Origin: Hippasteria phrygiana
Taxonomy: Eukaryota; Echinodermata; Asteroidea; Valvatida; Goniasteridae
DNA: 64,000 bases
Direction: 5' to 3'
Assembly: GCA_037893225.1 (NCBI GenBank)
Contig: JAZGUH010000928.1
Span: forward strand, 124,001 to 188,000
Position numbers and translations under genes: made by a program. Positions 2,793 through 19,074 of the stretch are shown in pieces (the first letter of the stretch is position 1; each line of letters opens with the position of its first letter). The notes below the pieces were generated by a model. The model was not told where the DNA came from. It worked only from the letters and a program-made list of their open reading frames with translations, and made no database searches.

Positions 2793-3596
2793 CACTGAAC
2801 ATTTTATTTAGTCAATTGACTAAAAAAAATAGTCATGCACACTGTCTTATTTTACTAATTAATAGTTTGTCATGTATGGGTTATTTTGACTAATTATAAC
2901 TAGTCGTGAAAAAGTGTCTTATTTGACTAACTTCTCAAATGATTAGTAATGCAAAAAAAATTATTAGTAATGCAAGAAAATTAATTAGTAATGCAAGAAA
3001 ACTAATTTGTCATGCTGACCATTCTAAATTGTCATGTTCGGCCTACGCCTAGTACATGTATACATTTAAACGGGCAGTATCCCTTCAATATCTTTAAGAT
3101 ATTGAATCAGACGTTGAACTGAATATTGCCAGTTTCACTTTTCATTCTGAATCGAAGCCTGATTATGGAAGTCAGCAACCAGGTTTCTAACTACATGTAC
3201 ATACATGTAGTTCTTGAAGAATTAATAAATATGTTCTAAGAAGCACGATGAACACATTGATAAGAAGCAACAACATTTTGACATTAAATTTCGCGATTTC
3301 AATTCAAGATTTATCACGTTCATAGCTATCAGTATCAATTTAGTCAAGCAATTCACAGGGAAACAAAAACATTCATTTGTCATTGTTCATCTCTTTAATT
3401 GTGAGTTGTGACCGACTGGACTTGTGAAGGAGCTTGTATTGTAATGGAATACAAAACTGGTCGACATTAATAACTTCGGTAAAAGTGTCTGAAGACCCAA
3501 CGAAAACATCAGATTTCACCCTTATAACGGCCACCAAAATACTGGTACGCAACCAGAGATACAAGTAGAGTTCGAGGATATAGGTATAGGTACTAG
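2793..3596. mobile_element. left half of a DNA transposon split by the virus-like element
   Basis: CACTGAACATTTTA at 2793-2806, followed by TTAGTCAATTGAC, is matched in inverted orientation by GTTCAGTG ending at 19761, preceded by TTGACTAATTAAAAT. Inside both ends are many copies of short TTAGTCA/TTTGTCA/TAGTAATGCAA motifs, the kind of subterminal repeats used by DNA transposases. Without the insertion the outer element would be about 1.5 kb. No transposase is seen, so it is probably non-autonomous. The superfamily is undecided: the termini start CACTG, but I could not find a clear target duplication. Confidence 0.6.
3591..3596. repeat. left target-site duplication TACTAG
   Basis: TACTAG directly before the left terminus is repeated at 19069-19074 directly after the right terminus. 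Six base pairs is the size made by Polinton/Maverick integrases. With this duplication the right end lacks the first A of the left terminus, so the exact junction is uncertain by one base. Confidence 0.6.
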
Positions 3597-3636
3597 AGTA
3601 GTATAGAAGGGAGAGTACTACCCCACTTTCAAAATT

Positions 3637-3874
3637 GCTGTATATACCCACACCAAATTTCTGTAAAAATTTGAAGAAAAAAACCCTAAAATCTCAAAAC
3701 CTCAAATTTCTCTCTCTCTCTCTCGATTTCTCTCAAATTTCGCTGTATCTACCCACACCAAATTTTTATAAAAATTTAAAAAAAATTGGAAAAACATAGC
3801 GTTCTAAGACTTTTCTGATTTTTAACAAATTTCGCTGTATATACCCACAGCAAATTTTTGTAAAAATCGATAAA
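3637..3874. repeat. three terminal iterons
   Basis: Three related units begin at about 3637, 3742 and 3834. Each reads GCTGTATATACCCACA or a close variant, followed by CAAATTT, a short spacer and TAAAAAT, so each carries a small near-palindrome. They are mirrored at the other end (about 18800-19033). A CT microsatellite lies between units 1 and 2 (about 3710-3734). Repeats this close to both termini are candidates for origin or replication-protein binding sites; that role is inferred. Confidence 0.55.
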
Positions 3875-4034
3875 ATCAAACTATTTTTCCCGCATCCCCA
3901 CCTGTATCATAATCACCTTAAAATTCTCTTGCAAAAAAAAAAAAACCAAAACCCTCAAACCTCTCTCTCTATTTTAGGGTCAAAAAAAATTAAATATTTT
4001 TTTTTTTTTAATAAAATAAACATCTATTATAAAG

Positions 4035-7000
4035 ATGGAAAACAGAATGATACCAGCGATAGGCTACACACGTTGGCCAAAATGCAGCTTGAAAAAATAC
4101 ATCGACAAATACGCCATTACGTTGGGCCCACCAACCGGACGCGATGGTGCATATATCAGACGAGACTTTCTATCGGTCATAAAAAAGAACGAAGCGCTTT
4201 ATAAAAATTTACGATCTAAGTCTAAAGAATCGTTAGAACATTTAATCGCGGATAAGAATATTCCGCTGGGCGATCCTACCGGAAGAAGGGGTCGACACAT
4301 TAAAAAAGATTTAGAATCCGCCATACGACGATACTATAAAAAACCCGACGAAGAACTCGTCCCCTTGATTTTTAACGAAACAGCTCCGAGACCATTCAGA
4401 AATTATTTACGTAATTACGAGATGAATATCGACAGAATTCTCGTAGATCCTCTAGCATTTTTTAACGAAAACGAACAAAAAATTGTAGAAACATTGAAAG
4501 AAACACTAAACGAATTTAGAAGCTTCAAATTTCAACTCGCATTAAAAGCGGCGTTGAGAAAATATAATCTTGCGAACGATACTTTTGTCGAAGACGCGAG
4601 CGTGTTTTTTGGGTTTCAATCGACCGCATTAAACGAAGACGAAATAGAAAACCAAGTACGAGAACAGATAGAGTTCATAATCGAAAAAATAGAAAAATTT
4701 CAAACAAACGGAAGCGGTTGGGTCATTTACGATTTAAAGACGCTCTACATCAACGTTTCTAGATATCAGCCGATAAGAGGCAGTTCCTACATTCCACTAC
4801 CCCCTCACATAGCCCTTAAAAAGGCAGTCGTCAATGTTAAAAACAAAGATCAACGATGTATCAGATGGGCGTTGAGAGCCGCCCTATCAAAATTTAAGCC
4901 CTCTGTCAAAGAATCGATTAAAAACAACCCCAACTATAATATTCACTACGAAAGGAATTCTATCTTCGAAGAAGATGATGGATTAGATTTTAAGAACGTA
5001 GCGTTTCCAACTCCCATCACGGATATTGACAAGATCGAAAAACAGAACGGTCTCGCCATTAACGTTTTTGGTTACGAAAATACAATTTTCCCGCTGAGAA
5101 TAACTACTCAACGAAAACCGGTCATCAATCTACTGCTGTTTTCTCAAGGAGACAATAATCATTATTGTTGGATAAAAAACCTCGACCGTTTACTGTCCAA
5201 CGAAACTAAACACAACGGACGCAAATATTTTTGTATGTGGTGCCTACAACATTTTAGTAGGCAAGACATTTTAGACAGACACGAGATAGATTGTAGGGGC
5301 GTTAGCCAAACCCCAGCTTTAGCCGTATTACCCGACTCAACCAACAACGTTCTAAAATTCAAAAACTTAAAAAATAAACAACCGGCGCCTTTTACTATAT
5401 ACGCCGACTTTGAAAGTATATTAGTGCCCTCTACACCCCTCGCGAGCACGCAACCCCCGCGCACTAAAAAGACTCACGAACATGAAGCTTGCGGCTACGC
5501 TTATATCATAATCGGACCCGATGGTCAAGTCTTAGGCGAGCCCAAGACGTACAGAGGAGCGAACGCAACATCACATTTCTTAAATCGTTTACTAGCCGAA
5601 AAAGACAAAATCAACGAAATATTCTCGAGTACGAAACCCATGATTTTTACGACCGAAGACGAGTTAGCTCATAACGACGCTAAAAATTGCTGGATTTGCG
5701 AGTACCCCCTTCAACACAAAACCAACACTTGCGAATGTACGCATCCGATAGATATAAATTTAGATCATCTCGGTAAAAAAACTAACGAAGAACTATTAGA
5801 AATAATCGCGGATAAACACATCGAGTTGGACGAACCAACGGGGGGATATATTAAAGCGGACTATATATCCGCTATAGAAAACGAGTTTTTAAAGGGGGAA
5901 GAGCTCGAAACGAGATCTTTTCCAACAAAATTCTGTTATAGATGCGTCAAAAAGATTTGCGCGTTTAGAAAAGTAAGAGACCATTGTCACATCACCGGTA
6001 AGTATAGAGGAGCCGCACACATGTGCTGTAACTTAAAATTACAGATAAAACCCGGTAAAACGACAATACCGGTCATCTTTCACAACTTAGAAAATTACGA
6101 CGCCCATTTGATTATGCAGAGTATTTCGGAAACCGACGGAAAACTAAAGTGTATAGCTAAAACGTCCGAAAAATATATTTCATTTTCGATAGGTCAACTC
6201 AGATTTTTAGATTCATTTAATTTCTTATCAACGTCGTTGGAACGATTGGTAGCCGCGTGTCCGATAGACGCGTTTAAGTATATCGATAAAGCCGTTGTAC
6301 CTAGGACCAACCCAGAGTCTGTCAGCCCCGTGTATGAGGACGTTGACGTGAGTAATCTAGAGAAAGACGAAGACGAAGTTAACGATTACAACGTAATCGG
6401 AAAACTGGTAACCTACTTGGCAGAGTCTAACAGTCCCCTATCACCTTTGTACGACGGTTACTCGGTAGAGTCTACAGTTGACGACGAAGCGCCACCCATC
6501 GACCTCGATAAACGAGATCTTTTAATTAAAAAGGGTGTATATCCCTACGAGTACATGGACAGCTTTGAACGATTTAACGAGAGTAGTCTGCCAGCTAAAC
6601 ACCATTTTTACAGCGGTCTAACGGATAAACACATAAGCGACTCTGACTATGAACACGCTAAAAAAGTATGGCGGACCTTCGACATCAAAAACATGGGCGA
6701 ATATCACGACCTCTACGTATTGACCGATGTGCTATTACTATCCAGCGTATTCGAGAATTTTAGAAAAATCTGTATAACAAATTATAAGTTGGATCCGTGC
6801 CATTATTTTACATCACCCGGCCTAAGTTGGGACGCTTTATTAAAACACTCTAAAGTCAAATTAGAACTCTTGACCAATATAGATCAGCATTTATTTGTAG
6901 AGAAAGGAACCAGAGGAGGAATATCTAGCGTGGGCTCACTTCGCTACGCCGAGGCCAACAATAAGTACTTGAAAGATTACGATCCGAGCAAACCCAACTC

Positions 7001-8297
7001 GTATATTTCGTATCTAGACGCCAACAACCTCTACGGATGGGCCATGAGTCAGCCATTACCGATCTCAGACTTTAGGTGGATCGACGAAAAGAAATTAGGT
7101 TTGTTTACCGCCGAATATATATCGTCTCTAGCCGACGACTCTCTTTGGGGCTATATTCTTGAAGTGGATTTAGACTATCCAGCTAAACTGCACGACTTAC
7201 ACAACGGTTATCCTTTAGCGCCCGTAAACCGAGTTATCTCGTTGGAATCGATGAGTCCTTATCAGCTAGACTCGATGGAAAAAACGGGAGCGAAACCGTC
7301 GAACGAAACTAAGTTGGTAGCGACGGGCGGACCGAGAAAGAATTACGTACTTCATTATAGAAATCTAAAATATTACCTCGCTCACGGTTTAGAACTAAAG
7401 AAAGTACGTAGGGTTTTAAAGTTTACACAAAAACCTTGGATGAAATCGTACATCGATAAAAATACCCAACTCAGAAAAGAAGCTAAATCCGATTTTGAAA
7501 AAGACTTTTTTAAATTGATGAACAACTCGGTATTTGGCAAAACTATGGAAGACGTTAGAAAGCGAATGGATACTCACTTGTGTAGAGCCCACGAAGAAGA
7601 TAGAATTAGTCGTCTGGTGGCTAAGCCCAATTACAACGGTAGGACAATTTTTGAACGCTGTAATCTATTAATGATAAACATGTATAAAACCCGAGTTGTT
7701 TTAAACAAACCCGTCTATTGCGGTATGAGTATTTTAGACTTATCGAAGCTTTTAATGTACGAATTTTATTACGATAAACTAAAAGTAAAGTACGAAGACA
7801 AAGTCGATTTGATTTATACCGATACGGACTCGTTGCTCTTACGTATTGAAACTGAAGACCTTTATCTCGACATGGAAAAAGACAAAGACTCGTACGATTT
7901 TAGCAACTACGAGAAAGACCACTTTTTATACGACGATTCAAACAAGAAAGTTATCGGTAAATTCAAAGACGAATGCGGCGGAAAACCTATCAAAGAAGTG
8001 GTTTGCATCAGATCAAAAATGTACTCTATTTTCATGGACGATAAGAAGAACATTAAGAAATCAAAAGGAGTCAAAAAGTACGTTGTTTCCAACGCGATAA
8101 CTCATCAAGATTATAAAGACTGCCTGTTTAACTCTAGAGTTTATCGACACGATATGAACACGTTGAGGAGCGACAAACATATCGTGAACTCTTTAACTCA
8201 AAATAAGGTATCACTCAATCCTAGAGACGACAAACGGTATATCTTAGACGATGGAATTCATACTCTGATGCACGATCATTACGCTATACGAGCGTAA
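4035..8297 (+). CDS. protein-primed family B DNA polymerase (intact copy)
   Basis: 1420 residues. All motifs of a family B polymerase are visible. Exonuclease: ExoI YADFES with D458/E460; ExoII FHNLENYDAH with D689; ExoIII Y894-x3-D898. Polymerase: motif A YLDANNLYG with D995; motif B KLMNNSVFGKT from K1160; motif C YTDTDS with D1263/D1265. The KSKGVKKY segment lies near the C terminus. Earlier, FCMWCLQHF...RHEIDC is a zinc finger, and CWIC...VRDHCHITGKYRGAAH is the zinc/HNH-like motif common in Maverick polymerases. The roughly 440-residue N-terminal extension may hold the terminal-protein function (inference). A motif of the SAP/HeH/LEM type occurs twice at the N terminus (about 19-50 and 66-98) and a third time inside the zinc motif (about 583-617). 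The ATG at 4035 follows an AT-rich leader and gives the longest frame. A second, broken copy lies at 14373-18631. Confidence 0.96.
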   Translation: MENRMIPAIGYTRWPKCSLKKYIDKYAITLGPPTGRDGAYIRRDFLSVIKKNEALYKNLRSKSKESLEHLIADKNIPLGDPTGRRGRHIKKDLESAIRRYYKKPDEELVPLIFNETAPRPFRNYLRNYEMNIDRILVDPLAFFNENEQKIVETLKETLNEFRSFKFQLALKAALRKYNLANDTFVEDASVFFGFQSTALNEDEIENQVREQIEFIIEKIEKFQTNGSGWVIYDLKTLYINVSRYQPIRGSSYIPLPPHIALKKAVVNVKNKDQRCIRWALRAALSKFKPSVKESIKNNPNYNIHYERNSIFEEDDGLDFKNVAFPTPITDIDKIEKQNGLAINVFGYENTIFPLRITTQRKPVINLLLFSQGDNNHYCWIKNLDRLLSNETKHNGRKYFCMWCLQHFSRQDILDRHEIDCRGVSQTPALAVLPDSTNNVLKFKNLKNKQPAPFTIYADFESILVPSTPLASTQPPRTKKTHEHEACGYAYIIIGPDGQVLGEPKTYRGANATSHFLNRLLAEKDKINEIFSSTKPMIFTTEDELAHNDAKNCWICEYPLQHKTNTCECTHPIDINLDHLGKKTNEELLEIIADKHIELDEPTGGYIKADYISAIENEFLKGEELETRSFPTKFCYRCVKKICAFRKVRDHCHITGKYRGAAHMCCNLKLQIKPGKTTIPVIFHNLENYDAHLIMQSISETDGKLKCIAKTSEKYISFSIGQLRFLDSFNFLSTSLERLVAACPIDAFKYIDKAVVPRTNPESVSPVYEDVDVSNLEKDEDEVNDYNVIGKLVTYLAESNSPLSPLYDGYSVESTVDDEAPPIDLDKRDLLIKKGVYPYEYMDSFERFNESSLPAKHHFYSGLTDKHISDSDYEHAKKVWRTFDIKNMGEYHDLYVLTDVLLLSSVFENFRKICITNYKLDPCHYFTSPGLSWDALLKHSKVKLELLTNIDQHLFVEKGTRGGISSVGSLRYAEANNKYLKDYDPSKPNSYISYLDANNLYGWAMSQPLPISDFRWIDEKKLGLFTAEYISSLADDSLWGYILEVDLDYPAKLHDLHNGYPLAPVNRVISLESMSPYQLDSMEKTGAKPSNETKLVATGGPRKNYVLHYRNLKYYLAHGLELKKVRRVLKFTQKPWMKSYIDKNTQLRKEAKSDFEKDFFKLMNNSVFGKTMEDVRKRMDTHLCRAHEEDRISRLVAKPNYNGRTIFERCNLLMINMYKTRVVLNKPVYCGMSILDLSKLLMYEFYYDKLKVKYEDKVDLIYTDTDSLLLRIETEDLYLDMEKDKDSYDFSNYEKDHFLYDDSNKKVIGKFKDECGGKPIKEVVCIRSKMYSIFMDDKKNIKKSKGVKKYVVSNAITHQDYKDCLFNSRVYRHDMNTLRSDKHIVNSLTQNKVSLNPRDDKRYILDDGIHTLMHDHYAIRA

Positions 8298-8299
8298 TG
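8277..8299 (+). terminator. perfect hairpin over the polymerase stop codon
   Basis: CATTACGCT, loop ATACG, AGCGTAATG: a 9-bp perfect stem that includes the TAA stop (8295-8297). A second 8-bp stem (CGTTAGAA/TTCTAACG, 8333-8356) follows within 60 bases. Some cytoplasmic DNA viruses and virophages end messages at hairpins, so a transcript 3'-end signal is plausible but inferred. Copies accompany the other polymerase ends near 13160 and 14372. Confidence 0.4.
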
Positions 8300-8463
8300 A
8301 GCGAGTACCGAACAAACGTTTAAAAAATACGTCGTTAGAATACTCGCTTTCTAACGTTGTATAGGAATACACCAGATTTCAAAAGGGAAACCCCCCTTTA
8401 CGAAAAAATGAAATAATAAAAAAAATGAGAAAAAAAATAATAAAATAATTAAATATATAAATC
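8298..8463. promoter_or_regulatory. AT-rich gap between polymerase and zinc/death-domain gene
   Basis: 166 bases. After the hairpins, the last 60 bases before the ATG are almost pure A/T, with AATAATAAAATAATTAAATATATAA. A very similar TTAATAAAATAA stretch precedes the polymerase ATG (about 4009-4020), and an A-rich run with ATAAA precedes the RPB5 start. This suggests a shared AT-rich early-type promoter, inferred by position only. Confidence 0.35.
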
Positions 8464-9330
8464 ATGTGCAAGTGGTTAAACATCGGAAAGCTAACTACGT
8501 GCGAAAAGGATGGAGAACCGTGGTGCCTCGATCATTTCGGCAGACGAGATCTAGCGCCTAAACCGTGTTTAAATTGTGGCTGCGGAACTAAATCAACTAC
8601 GCAACTTTGTGTGAATCATGCTTTAAGTAACGTAACGAGCCCAACTAATTTAAAAGTAAAGGATAAGTATTACGATATTTTTGTGGACGTAGCGAACAAG
8701 TGTAGATTGTACGACGAGAATATAAAAATGCCAGACGTTATATATATAACAGCGATTATACATCATATGGAAAAGATCGCGACCTTTATGGGAATAAATG
8801 TAGAATTCTTAGAGTACATCGAGGGAACTAGATATGATCATTATACCAAAGTTAGAATGGTAACGTATTTATGGTATCTTAAAGCATGTTTCGATAGAGA
8901 CTATAAACAAGATCTCAAGAAGATCTTGATCAGCTCCGGACTAACTCTATATACTTACAAGCTGAAATTCTTCGAAACTAGATCTAGAAATATCAACGTA
9001 GCTGACGACGCCGGCTATGCCTATATGGGTCCGTTGACGCCGACTTACTTGATAAGTAAAGATAAACTAGGTATAATGGATACTTTAACGAAACTAGCCG
9101 ACGAATTAGGTATAGATTGGAGACAATTTTGTACATACGCCGGAATGAACTATAATTGCGTAGAACAAATAGATGCCGATTATAAAAAAACGACCGAAAA
9201 AGCTTTTATGGCCTGTTATAAATTTTATTCGGACCATAGGAATTACGACGATATAAATACTATATTTCGTCGCATCATGCATCAGATAGGCAGATCGGAT
9301 TTAGCTATAGCGTATAACGATGTCTTTTGA
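8464..9330 (+). CDS. zinc-binding domain fused to a C-terminal death domain
   Basis: 288 residues, intact. Residues 1-53 are cysteine/histidine-rich (C13, C21-x2-H24, CLNCGCG at 35-41, C49-x2-H52) and identical to the start of the two-repeat zinc protein at 12467-12994. Residues about 60-180 form an unrecognised helical region. Residues about 205-286 fit the death-domain consensus: LADELGIDWRQF with W219, a YNCVEQIDADY helix, AFMACYKFY, then IGRSDLAIAY. Death domains mediate homotypic contacts in apoptosis and innate immune adaptors, so the protein may act on host cell-death signalling; this is inference. The identical N-terminus followed by an abrupt switch after CVNHA suggests a gene fusion made by deletion. 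The last helix lies just beyond the left arm boundary; the right-arm copy has lost it. Confidence 0.78.
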   Translation: MCKWLNIGKLTTCEKDGEPWCLDHFGRRDLAPKPCLNCGCGTKSTTQLCVNHALSNVTSPTNLKVKDKYYDIFVDVANKCRLYDENIKMPDVIYITAIIHHMEKIATFMGINVEFLEYIEGTRYDHYTKVRMVTYLWYLKACFDRDYKQDLKKILISSGLTLYTYKLKFFETRSRNINVADDAGYAYMGPLTPTYLISKDKLGIMDTLTKLADELGIDWRQFCTYAGMNYNCVEQIDADYKKTTEKAFMACYKFYSDHRNYDDINTIFRRIMHQIGRSDLAIAYNDVF

Positions 9331-9345
9331 AAATATAAACCTCGC

Positions 9346-9422
9346 ATCAGCTCATCTGCAGTTATCTATAAGTCATCTATCAGTTATCTATCAGTTATCT
9401 ATCAGTTATCTATAAGTCATCC
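9346..9422. repeat. 11-bp minisatellite, array 1
   Basis: About seven tandem copies of an 11-bp unit, consensus AGTYATCTATM, directly downstream of the death-domain gene and before the 3' end of the RPB5 gene. The unit is not a multiple of three and is not coding. Confidence 0.85.
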
Positions 9423-9458
9423 GTTTATATTTTTAACACTCTAAGAGTTTTAAAAAAT

Positions 9459-9962
9459 TCACGTTATAATTCTATAATATATTTCGTCGTTTCGTTTTAT
9501 CCTAATCAATTGTCCGTATTTTGCTCCTATTAATTTTATAGGTGGATCGGTAATTAATATTTTTGGTAATTTATCTTCGGTAATGTTATATTCTGATAGT
9601 ATTTTTTTTTTTTCATAGTCGGTACAAATCTCGTGCGGTACTAATAGATCGTGACTAAATATATCTATAGATAATTCATCTCTGGTAAAACATTGTATAT
9701 TAATATTTCCAATTTTATTTATTATATCTATGGTATTCTTTGCCCAAGGTGTAGGTTTTTCTTTAGTAACTAAAATAATATCGTTTAATCCTAGAGTTTT
9801 TATTTCTTTATAAATATCTCTGAGATTTACTCCTAGTTTTTGATTTTCTATATCTAGATATAGTAAATTTGAATCTAGTTTAGATAATAAAACGCATTTA
9901 TATTTCGAATGTATTTGTTTACCTAGATAATCATATCCCCTAATTTTACATAGTCTTTGCAT
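9459..9962 (-). CDS. RPB5-like DNA-directed RNA polymerase subunit
   Basis: 167 residues. The C-terminal part (about 104-167) matches the RPB5/RpoH assembly domain: HDLLVPHE, then the LPKI-x3-DPP segment (136-141), GAKYGQLIRIKR (146-157) and terminal YYRIIT. Residues about 58-100 resemble the end of the eukaryotic RPB5 N-terminal domain, including DIILVTKEKPTPWAK. Cellular RPB5 has about 210 residues and archaeal RpoH about 80, so this is a shortened eukaryotic/viral form. It would bind the largest RNA polymerase subunit and contact downstream DNA. No other polymerase subunit is encoded here, so it must work with a host or helper-virus enzyme, or act as a decoy. The AT-rich upstream run on the minus strand is a likely promoter. 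Confidence 0.9.
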   Translation of the reverse strand: MQRLCKIRGYDYLGKQIHSKYKCVLLSKLDSNLLYLDIENQKLGVNLRDIYKEIKTLGLNDIILVTKEKPTPWAKNTIDIINKIGNINIQCFTRDELSIDIFSHDLLVPHEICTDYEKKKILSEYNITEDKLPKILITDPPIKLIGAKYGQLIRIKRNDEIYYRIIT

Positions 9963-10021
9963 TTTATTTTTTTTTTAAGAAATAATAAACAATTCTTTTT
10001 TTAAAAACCTAGATAAACTTG

Positions 10022-10385
10022 AAGGTCATCTACAGTTCATCTATAGGTCATCTATAAGTCATCTATAGTTCATCTATAAGTTATCTATCAGTTATCTATC
10101 AGTCATCTATAGTTCATCTATAAGTTATCTATCAGTTATCTATCAGTCATCTATCAGTCATCTATCAGTTATCTATAAGTCATCTATAAGTTATCTATCA
10201 GTTATCTATCAGTTATCTATCAGTCATCTATCAGTCATCTATCAGTTATCTATAGTTCATCTATAAGTTATCTATCAGTCATCTATCAGTCATCTATCAG
10301 TCATCTATCAGTTATCTATAAGTCATCTATCAGTTATCTATAATTCATCTATAAGCCATCTATAGGTCATCTATAGGTCATCAAA
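10022..10385. repeat. 11-bp minisatellite, array 2 (largest)
   Basis: About 33 units of the AGTYATCTATM repeat, with TTATC/TCATC and CAGT/AAGT/TAGT variants intermixed. It lies between the divergently transcribed RPB5 and VLTF3 genes, so it may sit in or near both promoters. Confidence 0.9.
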
Positions 10386-10512
10386 GAATCTGCTATATCA
10401 CTCTTTTTTTTGTGCTATAATATAAAAGATTCAACGTTTAAAACGATTCTGGCGAAGACTTTATCGTTTAACGATATAAAAAAGTTGTTAATTGAAATAT
10501 CACGCTCTTTAA
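10386..10512 (+). promoter_or_regulatory. upstream region of the VLTF3-like gene
   Basis: About 130 AT-rich bases between the minisatellite and the ATG. Contains TATAATATAAAAG at 10418-10430, a plausible TATA-like element; no functional evidence. Confidence 0.3.
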
Positions 10513-11424
10513 ATGATGGAGATCGATGCTACCATAGATATCACTAATTTAAATTTAGCGATCTTAAACAGTTTATCAAATAGCCAACAATTTTGTTTTA
10601 TATGGCAAACTTGCGAAATTTTCGATCGATGGAAAAACAGCGGTTATAAAAAGTCTCTCAGTTATAAAAACGATTTGGACAAAAGGCAAAAAATAAAACG
10701 AGACTATTTACTGATTGCGTCGAAATATATAGATATAGACTTGGCGTTATTAAAGACTCAGCCCATCTACTGCGAATGTGGAAATACGAACTTTATAAGA
10801 GACGAGGATGGGACGTATTGTTCAGTATGCAAGACCGAACAGAATATTATAGATTTCTGCCCTAGTTTTAAAGACGTAGATAGAGCGAATTTATCCAATA
10901 AATATACGTATACTAGAAAAGGTCATTTTAAGGATGCCATTAAGAAATTCCAAGGAGATCAAAATGTAGATCAAACAAAAATATACAACGTCGTAAAAAT
11001 CATAAACAACGAAATAAAACATCACAAATTATCCGCAAATATCAAAGATAAAAATTGTATCACTAAAGATCAAGTTTATATGTTTTTGTCGGAAAACAAT
11101 TTAGGCAGTTTTTACGACGATATAAATTTAATTTATAATCTAATCACCGGAATAAAATGCCCGGATATTGACAAATATCTCGACGTTTTATTGGTAGATT
11201 TTGATAAATTAGAAGAAGCATTACGATATTGTAATAATAATAACGTTAGGATAAATTCGTTGAACGTAAACTATAAATTGTATAAATTATTGCAAAAAAA
11301 TTCTTACAAGTGTAAAAAGGATGATTTTTACATTTTAAAAACAAAAATCAAAGAAGAAGAACACGAAGAAGCTATGATGAAAGCTTTCGAGTACCTAGGT
11401 TGGAAATGGATTCCTACGAAATAG
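10513..11424 (+). CDS. VLTF3-like late transcription factor
   Basis: 303 residues. A zinc ribbon (C87-x-C89 ... C103-x2-C106) is followed by YTYTRKGHFKDAIKKFQG (131-148), the signature start of the poxvirus VLTF3/A2L family core. A long helical domain follows, with RINSLNVNYKLYKLLQ (about 246-261) and a C-terminal FEYLGWKWIPT. This order and the GW-x-WIP-type ending are characteristic of VLTF3 homologues in nucleocytoplasmic large DNA viruses, where the protein activates late genes. ATG ATG at 10513 gives two possible adjacent starts. The gene converges on the clamp gene and overlaps its 3' end by 11 bp. With no capsid genes here, its late targets are unclear. Confidence 0.92.
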   Translation: MMEIDATIDITNLNLAILNSLSNSQQFCFIWQTCEIFDRWKNSGYKKSLSYKNDLDKRQKIKRDYLLIASKYIDIDLALLKTQPIYCECGNTNFIRDEDGTYCSVCKTEQNIIDFCPSFKDVDRANLSNKYTYTRKGHFKDAIKKFQGDQNVDQTKIYNVVKIINNEIKHHKLSANIKDKNCITKDQVYMFLSENNLGSFYDDINLIYNLITGIKCPDIDKYLDVLLVDFDKLEEALRYCNNNNVRINSLNVNYKLYKLLQKNSYKCKKDDFYILKTKIKEEEHEEAMMKAFEYLGWKWIPTK

Positions 11425-12172
11425 ATAGTCTTTTTATATACAAAGTTACGACTCCTAAATTACCGGCTAATATAGCAATTTTAAGAGGGTCGTCTTCATC
11501 TTTTGGGGCGTACAGCCGAATCTGCTTTTCTAAATTACATATTTTTAATACGACGGCAAAGTTTTTACTATCGAACGCGCAATCGTATAACGGAAAGTCA
11601 TCTTTAACTCCTATATTTAAAGATGAACTGTACAACTGACCTTCTTTGCAATAGATCGATAAATAATTTTTATGTGCGCGCAAGTCTAACGATTTGCTCA
11701 TATTTATCATATTTTTAATTTTAGAAAAACAAACGCTTTCTATAACCTTAGCTTCAAAGTAGTGGTCTTTGCTAGGTATTTGAGTCTTTTCGCACTCGTC
11801 TATCAATCCTATGACGATTTTATAGACTTTAGAACTGATGTAATCATTATAGACCGTGATAATTAAGTTATCCGCTATCATTTTCAAATCTACAGATTCT
11901 TTACGTTTTATACTTTTTGTAATTTTTTGTAAATGCTTTAAATTTAGAAAGAAACACGTTGGTTTATTTTTTGTATAATCAAATTTGAAGAATTGATCTC
12001 TAGGAAATACTATATCTACGAAAACGTTTGTATTTTCGTCGTAGTATACGTGATATAAACCGGTATTATCGATTCTGAATTGAGTTTTTGGCATAAAAGA
12101 ACTCAGCATATCTATAACAGACTTTAGAATATAACCGTTCATTATGGTCACGTTAAATATTTCGCAGCTCAT
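11414..12172 (-). CDS. PCNA-like sliding clamp
   Basis: 252 residues, close to the usual 255-265 of PCNA. The two-domain clamp pattern is visible. The first half has the FRIDNTGLYHVYYDENTNVF region and FFLNLKHLQKITKSIKR, like the interdomain part of PCNA. The C terminus DPLKIAILAGNLGVVTLYI matches the typical PCNA ending in which a PL-x-I strand precedes LG-x-x-x-x-YI. As a trimeric ring it would tether the element's polymerase or recruit host proteins. Protein-primed polymerases are normally processive without a clamp, so its presence beside one is odd. The gene converges on the VLTF3-like gene with an 11-bp 3' overlap. Similarity is distant; identity is judged from pattern and length. Confidence 0.8.
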   Translation of the reverse strand: MSCEIFNVTIMNGYILKSVIDMLSSFMPKTQFRIDNTGLYHVYYDENTNVFVDIVFPRDQFFKFDYTKNKPTCFFLNLKHLQKITKSIKRKESVDLKMIADNLIITVYNDYISSKVYKIVIGLIDECEKTQIPSKDHYFEAKVIESVCFSKIKNMINMSKSLDLRAHKNYLSIYCKEGQLYSSSLNIGVKDDFPLYDCAFDSKNFAVVLKICNLEKQIRLYAPKDEDDPLKIAILAGNLGVVTLYIKRLSIS

Positions 12173-12335
12173 TTTACGTTTATACGTTTATTCGTTTATA
12201 CGTTTATACTTTTAAATTTTTGTAGGTTTAGTCGTATATCTATACAGCGTTCTAAAGGGCAACGGTCGAGTAAAAGTATTAGTTTAAAATCAACTAGATA
12301 TTCTATTATATTTGTATATTACTATTCTATTATAT
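12173..12335. promoter_or_regulatory. AT-rich region upstream of the clamp gene
   Basis: Contains tandem GTTTATACGTTTATTC-like repeats directly before the minus-strand ATG (12177-12212), with TATA-rich sequence beyond. Likely promoter by position. Confidence 0.3.
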
Positions 12336-12462
12336 TTTATCTATAGGTCATCTATCAGGTATCTAACAGTTATCTATGAATCATCTATAAATCATCTATA
12401 GATCATCTAACAGCTATCTATAGGTCATCTATCAGTTATCTATCAGGTATCTATCAGTCATA
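12336..12462. repeat. 11-bp minisatellite, array 3
   Basis: About eleven degenerate copies of the same AGTYATCTATM unit (variants GGTATCTATC, AATCATCTAT, AGATCATCTA) between the clamp promoter and the 3' end of the two-repeat zinc gene. More diverged than arrays 1 and 2. Confidence 0.85.
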
Positions 12463-12466
12463 TAAT

Positions 12467-12994
12467 TTAGAAAAACATACGCTCTTTACGACTTGGGTGT
12501 CGATATTCAAATATCGACTTTGAATAAATTTTACTACTACAGCGCTCAATTTTATTACACTTGGTACACTTACCGTTTTTAGAAAAAGTACCCCGGCCGC
12601 AGCAGTCGCAGGGATCTAATGCTCTACCGAGTTTTTTAAAACGATACGCGTGTAAAGAGCAATATATAGGGTCAGACTTAGCAGTTGGCTTATTACAGCG
12701 TTTTGAGCTACTACAAAGTAACCAAGTGCATCGACATTTTTCTGGGTTAAATTTAAAGTAGAGTTCTTTTATAACTCTTTTATACTTGGTTTTAGCCATA
12801 TTTTCGATGAGTTGTAGCCGCTGTTTTCCTTTCGTAGCATGATTCACACAAAGTTGCGTAGTTGATTTAGTTCCGCAGCCACAATTTAAACACGGTTTAG
12901 GCGCTAGATCTCGTCTGCCGAAATGATCGAGGCACCACGGTTCTCCATCCTTTTCGCACGTAGTTAGCTTTCCGATGTTTAACCACTTGCACAT
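12467..12994 (-). CDS. cysteine-rich protein with two zinc-binding repeats
   Basis: 175 residues. The first repeat (about 2-52) is identical to the N terminus of the death-domain fusion. The second (about 86-147) repeats its layout: CTWLLC, C-x3-H in IYCSLHAYRFKKLG, then CDCCGRGTFSKNGKCTKC, compared with WCLDHFGRRDL, CLNCGCGTKSTTQ and C-x2-H in repeat 1. The tail is basic and arginine-rich (EYRHPSRKERMFF). Having both repeats, this looks like the undamaged parent of the zinc portion of the fusion protein. I recognise no named family. DNA or RNA binding is a guess from the cysteine/basic composition. Confidence 0.65.
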   Translation of the reverse strand: MCKWLNIGKLTTCEKDGEPWCLDHFGRRDLAPKPCLNCGCGTKSTTQLCVNHATKGKQRLQLIENMAKTKYKRVIKELYFKFNPEKCRCTWLLCSSSKRCNKPTAKSDPIYCSLHAYRFKKLGRALDPCDCCGRGTFSKNGKCTKCNKIERCSSKIYSKSIFEYRHPSRKERMFF

Positions 12995-13406
12995 GATTTA
13001 TATATTTAATTATTTTATTATTTTTTTTCTCATTTTTTTTATTATTTCATTTTTTCGTAAAGGGGGGTTTCCCTTTTGAAATCTGGTGTATTCCTATACA
13101 ACGTTAGAAAGCGAGTATTCTAACGACGTATTTTTTAAACGTTTGTTCGGTACTCGCTCATTACGCTCGTATAGCGTAATGATCGTGCATCAGAGTATGA
13201 ATTCCATCGTCTAAGATATACCGTTTGTCGTCTCTAGGATTGAGTGATACCTTATTTTGAGTTAAAGAGTTCACGATATGTTTGTCGCTCCTCAACGTGT
13301 TCATATCGTGTCGATAAACTCTAGAGTTAAACAGGCAGTCTTTATAATCTTGATGAGTTATCGCGTTGGAAACAACGTACTTTTTGACTCCTTTTGATTT
13401 CTTAAT
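12835..13406 (-). repeat. third copy of the polymerase-end/zinc-start segment
   Basis: This 572-bp segment repeats 14047-14618 in the same orientation, 1212 bp away, and also matches the left arm inverted. It carries the first zinc repeat, the AT-rich gap with both hairpins, and the last part of the polymerase gene. Beyond 12835 the sequence continues into the second zinc repeat instead of the death-domain region. Confidence 0.88.
13161..13406 (-). pseudogene. fragment of the polymerase 3' end
   Basis: Only the C-terminal roughly 80 codons of the polymerase, including the stop, are present. At 13404-13406 the sequence switches into the truncated death-domain gene. No start or catalytic motif remains. 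Confidence 0.85.
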
Positions 13407-14206
13407 ATAGTATTTATATCGTCGTAATTCCTATGGTCCGAATAAAATTTATAACAGGCCATAAAAGCTTTTTCGGTCGTTTTTTTATAATCGGCATCTA
13501 TTTGTTCTACGCAATTATAGTTCATTCCGGCGTATGTACAAAATTGTCTCCAATCTATACCTAATTCGTCGGCTAGTTTCGTTAAAGTATCCATTATACC
13601 TAGTTTATCTTTACTTATCAAGTAAGTCGGCGTCAACGGACCCATATAGGCATAGCCGGCGTCGTCAGCTACGTTGATATTTCTAGATCTAGTTTCGAAG
13701 AATTTCAGCTTGTAAGTATATAGAGTTAGTCCGGAGCTGATCAAGATCTTCTTGAGATCTTGTTTATAGTCTCTATCGAAACATGCTTTAAGATACCATA
13801 AATACGTTACCATTCTAACTTTGGTATAATGATCATATCTAGTTCCCTCGATGTACTCTAAGAATTCTACATTTATTCCCATAAAGGTCGCGATCTTTTC
13901 CATATGATGTATAATCGCTGTTATATATATAACGTCTGGCATTTTTATATTCTCGTCGTACAATCTACACTTGTTCGCTACGTCCACAAAAATATCGTAA
14001 TACTTATCCTTTACTTTTAAATTAGTTGGGCTCGTTACGTTACTTAAAGCATGATTCACACAAAGTTGCGTAGTTGATTTAGTTCCGCAGCCACAATTTA
14101 AACACGGTTTAGGCGCTAGATCTCGTCTGCCGAAATGATCGAGGCACCACGGTTCTCCATCCTTTTCGCACGTAGTTAGCTTTCCGATGTTTAACCACTT
14201 GCACAT
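13358..14206 (-). pseudogene. right-arm zinc/death-domain gene, 3'-truncated
   Basis: The frame is identical to the left copy through residue 267 (NYDDINTI). It then runs into polymerase-derived sequence in another frame and stops after 15 foreign residues (282 in all). The break removes the last helix of the death domain, so that domain is unlikely to fold normally. The joint has a three-base ATT shared by both partners, as in microhomology-mediated or copy-choice recombination. Confidence 0.8.
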
Positions 14207-14372
14207 GATTTATATATTTAATTATTTTATTATTTTTTTTCTCATTTTTTTTATTATTTCATTTTTTCGTAAAGGGGGGTTTCCCTTTTGAAATCTGGTG
14301 TATTCCTATACAACGTTAGAAAGCGAGTATTCTAACGACGTATTTTTTAAACGTTTGTTCGGTACTCGCTCA

Positions 14373-17300
14373 TTACGCTCGTATAGCGTAATGATCGTGC
14401 ATCAGAGTATGAATTCCATCGTCTAAGATATACCGTTTGTCGTCTCTAGGATTGAGTGATACCTTATTTTGAGTTAAAGAGTTCACGATATGTTTGTCGC
14501 TCCTCAACGTGTTCATATCGTGTCGATAAACTCTAGAGTTAAACAGGCAGTCTTTATAATCTTGATGAGTTATCGCGTTGGAAACAACGTACTTTTTGAC
14601 TCCTTTTGATTTCTTAATGTTCTTCTTATCGTCCATGAAAATAGAGTACATTTTTGATCTGATGCAAACCACTTCTTTGATAGGTTTTCCGCCGCATTCG
14701 TCTTTGAATTTACCGATAACTTTCTTGTTTGAATCGTCGTATAAAAAGTGGTCTTTCTCGTAGTTGCTAAAATCGTACGAGTCTTTGTCTTTTTCCATGT
14801 CGAGATAAAGGTCTTCAGTTTCAATACGTAAGAGCAACGAGTCCGTATCGGTATAAATCAAATCGACTTTGTCTTCGTACTTTACTTTTAGTTTATCGTA
14901 ATAAAATTCGTACATTAAAAGCTTCGATAAGTCTAAAATACTCATACCGCAATAGACGGGTTTGTTTAAAACAACTCGGGTTTTATACATGTTTATCATT
15001 AATAGATTACAGCGTTCAAAAATTGTCCTACCGTTGTAATTGGGCTTAGCCACCAGACGACTAATTCTATCTTCTTCGTGGGCTCTACACAAGTGAGTAT
15101 CCATTCGCTTTCTAACGTCTTCCATAGTTTTGCCAAATACCGAGTTGTTCATCAATTTAAAAAAGTCTTTTTCAAAATCGGATTTAGCTTCTTTTCTGAG
15201 TTGGGTATTTTTATCGATGTACGATTTCATCCAAGGTTTTTGTGTAAACTTTAAAACCCTACGTACTTTCTTTAGTTCTAAACCGTGAGCGAGGTAATAT
15301 TTTAGATTTCTATAATGAAGTACGTAATTCTTTCTCGGTCCGCCCGTCGCTACCAACTTAGTTTCGTTCGACGGTTTCGCTCCCGTTTTTTCCATCGAGT
15401 CTAGCTGATAAGGACTCATCGATTCCAACGAGATAACTCGGTTTACGGGCGCTAAAGGATAACCGTTGTGTAAGTCGTGCAGTTTAGCTGGATAGTCTAA
15501 ATCCACTTCAAGAATATAGCCCCAAAGAGAGTCGTCGGCTAGAGACGATATATATTCGGCGGTAAACAAACCTAATTTCTTTTCGTCGATCCACCTAAAG
15601 TCTGAGATCGGTAATGGCTGACTCATGGCCCATCCGTAGAGGTTGTTGGCGTCTAGATACGAAATATACGAGTTGGGTTTGCTCGGATCGTAATCTTTCA
15701 AGTACTTATTGTTGGCCTCGGCGTAGCGAAGTGAGCCCACGCTAGATATTCCTCCTCTGGTTCCTTTCTCTACAAATAAATGCTGATCTATATTGGTCAA
15801 GAGTTCTAATTTGACTTTAGAGTGTTTTAATAAAGCGTCCCAACTTAGGCCGGGTGATGTAAAATAATGGCACGGATCCAACTTATAATTTGTTATACAG
15901 ATTTTTCTAAAATTCTCGAATACGCTGGATAGTAATAGCACATCGGTCAATACGTAGAGGTCGTGATATTCGCCCATGTTTTTGATGTCGAAGGTCCGCC
16001 ATACTTTTTTAGCGTGTTCATAGTCAGAGTCGCTTATGTGTTTATCCGTTAGACCGCTGTAAAAATGGTGTTTAGCTGGCAGACTACTCTCGTTAAATCG
16101 TTCAAAGCTGTCCATGTACTCGTAGGGATATACACCCTTTTTAATTAAAAGATCTCGTTTATCGAGGTCGATGGGTGGCGCTTCGTCGTCAACTGTAGAC
16201 TCTACCGAGTAACCGTCGTACAAAGGTGATAGGGGACTGTTAGACTCTGCCAAGTAGGTTACCAGTTTTCCGATTACGTTGTAATCGTTAACTTCGTCTT
16301 CGTCTTTCTCTAGATTACTCACGTCAACGTCCTCATACACGGGGCTGACAGACTCTGGGTTGGTCCTAGGTACAACGGCTTTATCGATATACTTAAACGC
16401 GTCTATCGGACACGCGGCTACCAATCGTTCCAACGACGTTGATAAGAAATTAAATGAATCTAAAAATCTGAGTTGACCTATCGAAAATGAAATATATTTT
16501 TCGGACGTTTTAGCTATACACTTTAGTTTTCCGTCGGTTTCCGAAATACTCTGCATAATCAAATGGGCGTCGTAATTTTCTAAGTTGTGAAAGATGACCG
16601 GTATTGTCGTTTTACCGGGTTTTATCTGTAATTTTAAGTTACAGCACATGTGTGCGGCTCCTCTATACTTACCGGTGATGTGACAATGGTCTCTTACTTT
16701 TCTAAACGCGCAAATCTTTTTGACGCATCTATAACAGAATTTTGTTGGAAAAGATCTCGTTTCGAGCTCTTCCCCCTTTAAAAACTCGTTTTCTATAGCG
16801 GATATATAGTCCGCTTTAATATATCCCCCCGTTGGTTCGTCCAACTCGATGTGTTTATCCGCGATTATTTCTAATAGTTCTTCGTTAGTTTTTTTACCGA
16901 GATGATCTAAATTTATATCTATCGGATGCGTACATTCGCAAGTGTTGGTTTTGTGTTGAAGGGGGTACTCGCAAATCCAGCAATTTTTAGCGTCGTTATG
17001 AGCTAACTCGTCTTCGGTCGTAAAAATCATGGGTTTCGTACTCGAGAATATTTCGTTGATTTTGTCTTTTTCGGCTAGTAAACGATTTAAGAAATGTGAT
17101 GTTGCGTTCGCTCCTCTGTACGTCTTGGGCTCGCCTAAGACTTGACCATCGGGTCCGATTATGATATAAGCGTAGCCGCAAGCTTCATGTTCGTGAGTCT
17201 TTTTAGTGCGCGGGGGTTGCGTGCTCGCGAGGGGTGTAGAGGGCACTAATATACTTTCAAAGTCGGCGTATATAGTAAAAGGCGCCGGTTGTTTATTTTT

Positions 17301-18631
17301 TAAGTTTTTGAATTTTAGAACGTTGTTGGTTGAGTCGGGTAATACGGCTAAAGCTGGGGTTTGGCTAACGCCCCTACAATCTATCTCGTGTCTGTCTAAA
17401 ATGTCTTGCCTACTAAAATGTTGTAGGCACCACATACAAAAATATTTGCGTCCGTTGTGTTTAGTTTCGTTGGACAGTAAACGGTCGAGGTTTTTTATCC
17501 AACAATAATGATTATTGTCTCCTTGAGAAAACAGCAGTAGATTGATGACCGGTTTTCGTTGAGTAGTTATTCTCAGCGGGAAAATTTTATTTTCGTAACC
17601 AAAAACGTTAATGGCGAGACCGTTCTGTTTTTCGATCTTGTCAATATCCGTGATGGGAGTTGGAAACGCTACGTTCTTAAAATCTAATCCATCATCTTCT
17701 TCGAAGATAGAATTCCTTTCGTAGTGAATATTATAGTTGGGGTTGTTTTTAATCGATTCTTTGACAGAGGGCTTAAATTTTGATAGGGCGGCTCTCAACG
17801 CCCATCTGATACATCGTTGATCTTTGTTTTTAACATTGACGACTGCCTTTTTAAGGGCTATGTGAGTAGTGGAATGTAGGAACTGCCTCTTATCGGCTGA
17901 TATCTAGAAACGTTGATGTAGAGCGTCTTTAAATCGTAAATGACCCAACCGCTTCCGTTTGTTTGAAATTTTTCTATTTTTTCGATTATGAACTCTATCT
18001 GTTCTCGTACTTGGTTTTCTATTTCGTCTTCGTTTAATGCGGTCGATTGAAACCCAAAAAACACGCTCGCGTCTTCGACAAAAGTATCGTTCGCAAGATT
18101 ATATTTTCTCAACGCCGCTTTTAATGCGAGTTGAAATTTGAAGCTTCTAAATTCGTTTAGTGTTTCTTTCAATGTTTCTACAATTTTTTGTTCGTTTTCG
18201 TTAAAAAATGCTAGAGGATCTACGAGAATTCTGTCGATATTCATCTCGTAATTACGTAAATAATTTCTGAATGGTCTCGGAGCTGTTTCGTTAAAAATCA
18301 AGGGGACGAGTTCTTCGTCGGGTTTTTTATAGTATCGTCGTATGGCGGATTCTAAATCTTTTTTAATGTGTCGACCCCTTCTTCCGGTAGGATCGCCCAG
18401 CGGAATATTCTTATCCGCGATTAAATGTTCTAACGATTCTTTAGACTTAGATCGTAAATTTTTATAAAGCGCTTCGTTCTTTTTTATGACCGATAGAAAG
18501 TCTCGTCTGATATATGCACCATCGCGTCCGGTTGGTGGGCCCAACGTAATGGCGTATTTGTCGATGTATTTTTTCAAGCTGCATTTTGGCCAACGTGTGT
18601 AGCCTATCGCTGGTATCATTCTGTTTTCCAT
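14373..18631 (-). pseudogene. protein-primed DNA polymerase, frameshifted copy
   Basis: Same gene as the left copy, but a GGGG is missing between 17866 and 17867 (plus-strand view). The frame is broken after about residue 255, leaving 14373-17798 as an open 3' part with all exonuclease and polymerase motifs and 17858-18631 as a short N-terminal part. A shortened product from an internal methionine is conceivable but would lack the N-terminal extension. Apart from this indel it is almost identical to the intact copy. Confidence 0.9.
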
Positions 18632-18799
18632 CTTTATAATAGATGTTTATTTTATTTAAAAAAAAAAAATATTTAATTTTTTTTGACCCTAAAATAGAGA
18701 GAGAGGTTTGAGGGTTTTGGGTTTTTTTTTTTTGCAAGAGAATTTTAAGGTGATTATGATACAGGTGGGGATGCGGGAAAAATAGTTTGATTTTATCGA

Positions 18800-19033
18800 T
18801 TTTTACAAAAATTTGCTGTGGGTATATACAGCGAAATTTGTTAAAAATCAGAAAAGTCTTAGAACGCTATGTTTTTCCAATTTTTTTTTAATTTTTATAA
18901 AAATTTGGTGTGGGTAGATACAGCGAAATTTGAGAGAAATCGAGAGAGAGAGAGAGAAATTTGAGGTTTTGAGATTTTAGGGTTTTTTTCTTCAAATTTT
19001 TACATAAATTTGGTGTGGGTATATACAGCAATT
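18800..19033. repeat. mirrored terminal iterons (right end)
   Basis: Inverted copies of the three left-end units, with the GA microsatellite between two of them (about 18939-18956). Confidence 0.55.
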
Positions 19034-19068
19034 TTGAAAGTGGGGTAGTACTCTCCCTTCTATACTAC

Positions 19069-19074
19069 TACTAG
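19069..19074. repeat. right target-site duplication TACTAG
   Basis: Matches 3591-3596. The first T overlaps the alternative reading of the terminus in which the right end stops at 19069. Confidence 0.6.

Follow-up and report, generated by a model that had tools for sequence, protein, structure and literature searches.

The genome of Hippasteria phrygiana (Asteroidea) carries a family of integrated, recently mobile elements. In these, long inverted arms bearing a DNA polymerase gene surround a variable centre. We describe the family from one member, found in a stretch of 64,000 nucleotides (assembly GCA_037893225.1, contig JAZGUH010000928.1, positions 124,001 to 188,000; hereafter the window). 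The element spans window positions 3597–19069, is inserted in animal DNA with a 5-bp target duplication (ACTAG), and encodes homologues of RPB5, VLTF3 and PCNA. The best explanation, to which we give an even chance, is that such elements are self-replicating satellites without integrase or capsid. They would supply transcription factors for a viral-type RNA polymerase, with the helper inferred. Features of the element are listed below (aa, amino acids; ORF, open reading frame; PolB, family B DNA polymerase).

3592–3596: left target site duplication, ACTAG
3597–9266, plus strand: left inverted arm, about 5.67 kb, terminus AGTAGTATAG
4035–8297, plus strand: protein-primed PolB, left copy, open for 1420 aa
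8464–9330, plus strand: ORF2, 288 aa, with a zinc module and a weak Death-domain match; optional in the family
9346–9421: 11-bp tandem repeats of the TCATCTATCAG type
9459–9962, minus strand: RPB5 homologue, 167 aa, an optional module
10026–10382: array of 11-bp tandem repeats separating RPB5 from VLTF3
10513–11424, plus strand: VLTF3 homologue, 303 aa, missing some 100–140 N-terminal residues of most aligned relatives
11414–12172, minus strand: PCNA-like sliding clamp, 252 aa, overlapping the 3' end of VLTF3 tail to tail
12337–12461: 11-bp tandem repeats downstream of ORF6
12467–12994, minus strand: ORF6, 175 aa, cysteine-rich, double zinc-finger-like
12836–13417, minus strand: additional, incomplete duplicate of the inner end of the arm, matching 8041–8622; absent in copy C76
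13358–14206, minus strand: right-arm copy of ORF2, C-terminus altered by rearrangement
13404–19069, minus strand: right inverted arm (99.8% identity with the left one), in which the polymerase frame is interrupted
19070–19074: right target site duplication, ACTAG

The outer termini are inverted, with AGTAGTATAG at the left and CTATACTACT at the right, and ACTAG lies outside each. An earlier, sequence-only reading of the window had proposed an element with AGT...ACT ends; the ends stand as described, and the bounds to within one base. That account did not extend to the 5.67-kb arms, the second polymerase copy, the extra arm piece or the family of copies. Briefly, the element is a near-palindrome. 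Each arm contains a polymerase gene, and the two differ by 5 mismatches and 2 gap openings. A small indel breaks the right-arm polymerase into ORFs at 14373–17435 and 17858–18631. We considered whether the palindrome was an assembly artefact, and rejected this because the end pieces of seven of eight other copies are mutually inverted and polymerase lies on both sides in all 16 other young centres. The extra arm piece is a rearrangement of the window copy and is lacking from C76, the nearest copy. This smaller rearrangement (12836–14206) could be an artefact or a true local duplication.

We searched the genome (944 Mb, 1285 contigs), and all copy counts are lower bounds. With the outer 124 bp as query, 40 of 133 terminal candidates were scored. 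Among these, paired ends lay approximately 12–15.5 kb apart, mostly 12–15 kb. Family termini read AGTAGTA. The target site duplication was a perfect 5 bp in seven of the nine copies with ends read, window included; C529 and C162 could not be resolved. Six other copies gave CAAGT, CATGT, CATTT, CAGGG, CCTTG and ACTCG, the CAAGT of C76 being seen on both sides by end alignment. Half of these six insertions lie in host tandem repeats (L029/L030, L037/L038 and L043/L044), and for two of the three the repeats are of one family. At G000:C529:1319862-1335979 a third copy of the terminus sits 1.4 kb outside one end, and the inverted repeat runs past the terminus.

Arms were compared along 1.5 kb at the 3' end of the polymerase gene. 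Within a copy they were 99.33–100% identical (17 of 17 copies). Between copies, identity averaged 93.3% (range 88.7–100; 272 comparisons). Hence, the two arms of a copy become identical when it inserts or shortly beforehand, long after the lineages split. Arm identity and VLTF3 identity were loosely correlated (rho 0.47), which suggests exchange of modules.

The sequence-only reading proposed a search for further copies with the same gene set, and the genome search found them. VLTF3 gave 126 rows; 51 were open over at least 296 aa at 94–100% identity, and four further full-length open copies were older (79%). Some rows form equal-score pairs on two contigs and may be duplicated segments. For PCNA there were 118 rows, 58 at 90% identity or more. 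C305 aside, each of the 58 lay no more than 1 kb from a VLTF3 match, complete or partial. RPB5 gave 39 rows at 34 places, 29 of them full length and open. All were 89–100% identical; hence, RPB5 looks like a recent addition. We then inspected 20 chosen copies (16 young, four old) over 10 kb at their centres. Inward-facing polymerase flanked VLTF3, PCNA and ORF6 in every young centre (PCNA and ORF6 frames are broken in C607). Eight of the 16 carried RPB5, split in one of them, and ten carried the Death-like gene. The four old centres are decayed. L026, at 79%, preserves the order VLTF3-PCNA-ORF6-polymerase; the other three preserve parts only. Four centres of terminal pairs lacking VLTF3 were also inspected. 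Three (the first in C272, C860 and C439) contained polymerase, ORF2, RPB5 and ORF6. The second in C272 contained polymerase, ORF2 and ORF6, with neither VLTF3-PCNA nor RPB5. At G000:C272:1307275-1309937, two RPB5 copies occur in one VLTF3-less element. We conclude that the central genes are exchangeable modules.

The three central assignments of the sequence-only reading are supported by profiles. RPB5 matched Pfam RNA_pol_Rpb5_C (2.7e-18) and plant RPB5 in the PDB (4e-16, over residues 31–166). Residue 31 aligns to residue 64 of the PDB protein, and the C-terminal assembly domain is kept. VLTF3 matched Pfam Pox_VLTF3 (3.1e-24). PCNA matched Pfam PCNA_N (4.8e-7), the NCBIfam sliding clamp model (6.3e-12) and PCNA in the PDB (9.6e-8). 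A protein search with VLTF3 placed 140 of 1201 candidates at E ≤ 1e-3, the best at 1.1e-74 with 48% identity and 99% query coverage. Among the 120 of these that were listed, none exceeded 59% identity and the only virus named was Marseillevirus LCMAC102. The N-terminus of the element protein is 100–143 residues shorter than that of 15 of 19 aligned relatives, and 44–82 shorter than that of the other four.

In a quick tree of 86 rows, seven element VLTF3 rows formed one clade among 79 homologues (approximate likelihood-ratio support, SH-aLRT, 100; branch length 2.69), with neighbours that the tree does not resolve. This pattern would fit a single origin from a viral-type VLTF3. For PCNA, archaeal-type clamp models scored 45.6 bits and the eukaryotic model 37.7. 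RPB5 had a single match in the large protein search, P0122, on a 463-kb contig. Because the archaeal-type clamp models score higher and P0122 is the only RPB5 match there, we do not favour the host as a recent source of either gene, although the PDB matches of RPB5 were eukaryotic first. Scans of IMG/VR found no relatives; this says little, as the alignment-based VLTF3 scan there confirmed zero viral VLTF3. A search of phage records for relatives led nowhere.

Selection was assessed from the ratio of non-synonymous to synonymous change (dN/dS), by pairwise Nei-Gojobori counting as mean dN over mean dS. Pairs with dS of zero were excluded from the means, a length filter removed frames shortened by breaks, and the pairs are not independent. 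For VLTF3 the ratio was 0.081 (17 sequences, 136 young pairs, none with dN>dS). Against three old copies it was 0.093 (54 pairs, mean dS 1.26). PCNA gave 0.127 and the C-terminal part of the polymerase 0.178, each with 16 sequences, 120 pairs and none with dN>dS. These ratios clearly point to maintenance of VLTF3 and PCNA by selection. Judged by its ratio, the polymerase is likewise under purifying selection. The signal for selective maintenance of RPB5 is weak. The sequence-only reading had also allowed that the central block might be a separate insertion absent from related elements. In part this is so: VLTF3-PCNA and RPB5 are modules, the former missing in the four VLTF3-less elements and RPB5 in one of them. 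The modules belong to a mobile family and VLTF3 and PCNA are under purifying selection; hence, they are not passive insertions.

The protein-primed PolB named in the sequence-only reading is recognisable through its relatives. The window polymerase itself has no Pfam match at E ≤ 0.01 (Endonuclease_7 reached 0.23), no DNA_pol_B_2 match and no match in the PDB. When it was aligned with 17 chosen relatives, nine of the 18 members matched DNA_pol_B_2. Endonuclease_7 was matched by 17, the sole exception being the window's own. The polymerase family is large, with 7994 of 8000 scored candidates at E ≤ 1e-3. Elysia crispata and Oculina patagonica are named among the matches listed. A candidate hairpin (AAAGGG-loop-CCCTTT) lies at approximately 8380–8400 in the window, between the polymerase stop and the ORF2 start. 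A fixed pattern for it was matched in 12 of 16 copies; among four folds, the intended stretch was caught in L009 only. The hairpin is a possible signal for the 3' end.

That the gene set is unlike that of Polintons and adintoviruses, as previously claimed, proved correct: no integrase, ATPase, protease or capsid was found in the element. The nine ORFs of at least 80 aa in the window element gave no match to rve integrase. Neither the element nor the young centres yielded a packaging ATPase, capsid or protease; capsid families were not searched genome-wide. Of the ORFs of at least 80 aa in the 16 young centres, all but two (80 and 95 aa) correspond to genes of the window element. A32-type ATPase gave 21 matches in the genome; where one shares a contig with an element match, the two are more than 250 kb apart. 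The genome also holds a Polinton-like locus, L050 (G000:C151:381000-390500, 9.5 kb), with an A32 ATPase (2.9e-11), an rve integrase (2.4e-8) and a capsid-like match (0.0023) below the cut-off. The 9.5-kb piece does not include its polymerase. We found no capsid-bearing version between the family's termini in C182 (10 kb of a 39-kb pair) or in the centres from C272 (twice), C860 and C439. The C182 pair (G000:C182:1358534-1397935) has its termini 39 kb apart and is perhaps a nested insertion; in the 10 kb covered inside it, no ORF reaches 100 aa.

All five distinct promoters carry TAAA next to the start codon, either inside the 12 nt that precede the ATG or overlapping it. The chance of this is 6e-5 uncorrected, or about 0.016 after multiplying by the 256 four-base words. 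The TATA box of RNA polymerase II (Pol II) sits approximately 30 nt before the start. The layout seen here is closer to poxvirus late promoters than to Pol II promoters; hence, VLTF3 and RPB5 would serve a viral-type RNA polymerase.

We propose the following mechanism. Replication would proceed on linear DNA by protein priming, with the polymerase and clamp that the element encodes. During replication or recombination, one arm would be copied onto the other, so that arms are identical at insertion in the manner of long terminal repeats. Integration would rely in trans on the rve-type integrase of a Polinton resident in this genome; if there is a capsid, this Polinton or another virus would provide it. 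VLTF3, sometimes with RPB5, would steer a viral-type RNA polymerase to TATAAA or TAAA just upstream of start codons. That polymerase would most likely be that of a co-infecting large DNA virus. The element would thus function like a transpoviron or virophage equipped with its own replication enzyme. The satellite idea of the sequence-only reading is plausible. A more specific version has the elements as animal-genome satellites that replicate by protein priming, are moved by Polinton integrase and borrow the RNA polymerase of a large DNA virus through VLTF3 and RPB5, as endogenous capsid-less virophage-like parasites. This we hold tentatively, as a possibility short of even.

Several points weigh against the satellite explanation. 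Of the 51 near-full-length young VLTF3 copies, only 21 have an RPB5 match nearby and 30 have none, and VLTF3-PCNA is absent from some members. Hence, neither module is essential everywhere. Constraint is weak for RPB5 (dN/dS 0.41; 28 pairs, three with dN>dS), ORF6 (0.41; 120 pairs, five with dN>dS) and ORF2 (0.40; 66 pairs, none with dN>dS). The TAAA motif was picked post hoc. The other copies were covered at their centres and not in their outer arms, where an integrase is possible. Termini of the resident Polinton were not found on comparing three copies, two of which match over 2.2 kb and the third not at all; hence, integrase supply in trans is something we infer. For the family as a whole, no helper virus, transcript or particle is known.

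A self-contained nuclear element would account for the missing helper. Here VLTF3 and RPB5 would act with host Pol II and not a viral enzyme. RPB5 is common to Pol I, II and III. Hence, the element's RPB5, with its assembly domain kept, could be incorporated into the host enzyme and so enable VLTF3 to recognise promoters of the element. Many young insertions do persist in this animal genome. However, the 30 young VLTF3 copies with no RPB5 match nearby sit badly with such a role, and TATAAA or TAAA within 12 nt of the ATG misfits Pol II TATA geometry. VLTF3 is known only with viral RNA polymerases, and we judge a nuclear element rather unlikely. In a different role, the shortened VLTF3 and RPB5 would be decoys that poison transcription of a large DNA virus and protect the host, like integrated virophages of protists. 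The N-terminal truncation of VLTF3, the alignment of RPB5 from residue 31 to PDB residue 64, and the gain and loss of modules across members are all compatible with interference. However, PCNA and polymerase are constrained too, as for a replicating parasite, and there is no sign of infection or protection. We consider this explanation unlikely.

The elements might instead derive by deletion from a fuller virus, one end having been copied over the other to replace integrase and capsid. VLTF3, RPB5 and PCNA would then be original, and an intact virus may survive elsewhere. Poxvirus ends undergo mirror-image deletions, which provide a model. Such an origin agrees with the Polinton-like locus in the same genome and with the presence of polymerase in each arm of all 17 young copies examined, the window's included. 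It is made improbable by the VLTF3-PCNA-ORF6-polymerase order retained in the old copy L026 and partly in three other old centres. In addition, no A32-type ATPase match (21 in all) occurs within 250 kb of a scored terminal match (40 in all), and the 10 kb examined of the lone 39-kb terminal pair has no ORF that reaches 100 aa. Finally, giant-virus genes could be functionless cargo caught by chance in a transposon. Their modular presence and absence among members would suit this. We reject it as very improbable given dN/dS of 0.08–0.13 for VLTF3 and PCNA; the 51 open near-full-length VLTF3 copies also speak against it. The satellite explanation remains the one that we prefer.

The remaining genes of the element are less well defined. 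ORF2, which lies mostly inside the arm, matches the Death domain at 22.4 bits, under the cut-off of 22.6, and a profile of 12 copies found no PDB match for the domain. The first 53 aa are identical between ORF2 and ORF6. ORF6 belongs to no family in Pfam or NCBIfam scans. The 11-bp arrays beside RPB5 and ORF6 are possible recombination sites for gain and loss of modules. Elsewhere in the window, an inverted repeat with GGCGTCGCA tandem repeats (767–1529) is perhaps a small non-autonomous element. Minus-strand frames at 37003–37425 and 46355–46699 resemble neuron navigator exons, which marks the host as an animal. Frames at 47949–48368 and 50321–50782, also on the minus strand, contain repeated NPAKSSYAL / LNPPKSS peptides.

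Taken together, a single mobile family in an animal host unites replication of the Polinton type with transcription genes of giant viruses. For the sea anemone Exaiptasia pallida, PMC5294986 reports VLTF3 as an isolated gene, with copies that lie among metazoan genes and are not accompanied by other core genes of giant viruses. These may be the same kind of thing as our element, and the family offers a testable explanation for them. It would also be a further case of protein-primed elements acquiring virus-like transcription genes, and bears on exchange between nuclear elements and cytoplasmic DNA viruses (PMC10328495). Some 50 open copies, with arms that date insertion, make direct tests by expression and infection studies feasible.

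Like Polintons (Mavericks) and adintoviruses, the element has a protein-primed PolB, terminal inverted repeats, a short target duplication and a metazoan host. Polinton inverted terminal repeats begin AG, and Polintons usually leave a 6-bp target duplication. Unlike these, the element has kilobase-long arms with two polymerase copies, a 5-bp duplication, VLTF3, PCNA and RPB5. Adintoviruses are defined by capsid, PolB and integrase; neither capsid nor integrase was found in the window element or the centres. Mavirus-like virophages and Polinton-like viruses are small, integrating and tied to giant viruses, some with protein-primed PolB. They differ in encoding capsid and ATPase, and often integrase. 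An endogenous giant virus fragment would be a long stretch of many genes, whereas these elements are bounded, approximately 12–15.5 kb, and have termini. Literature on Polintons, Mavericks and adintoviruses, in the records and abstract openings listed, names no animal element of this kind with VLTF3, PCNA, RPB5 or an RNA polymerase subunit.

The element encodes just the RPB5 subunit of RNA polymerase, unlike the yeast cytoplasmic linear plasmids. The latter encode an RNA polymerase and a capping enzyme of their own, do not integrate and are not known to carry VLTF3 or PCNA. Both are linear and combine protein-primed PolB with virus-like transcription genes (compare PMC10328495). With PolB in both arms and, going by sequence alone, integration in an animal genome with target duplications, the element also departs from transpovirons. 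These are episomes of protist giant viruses and are not known to have a PolB. The likeness lies in small, linear, capsid-less DNA with terminal inverted repeats and in use of giant-virus transcription (compare PMC11464507). We conclude that the element falls outside the definitions of Polintons, adintoviruses, transpovirons and cytoplasmic linear plasmids, and works like a mix of them.

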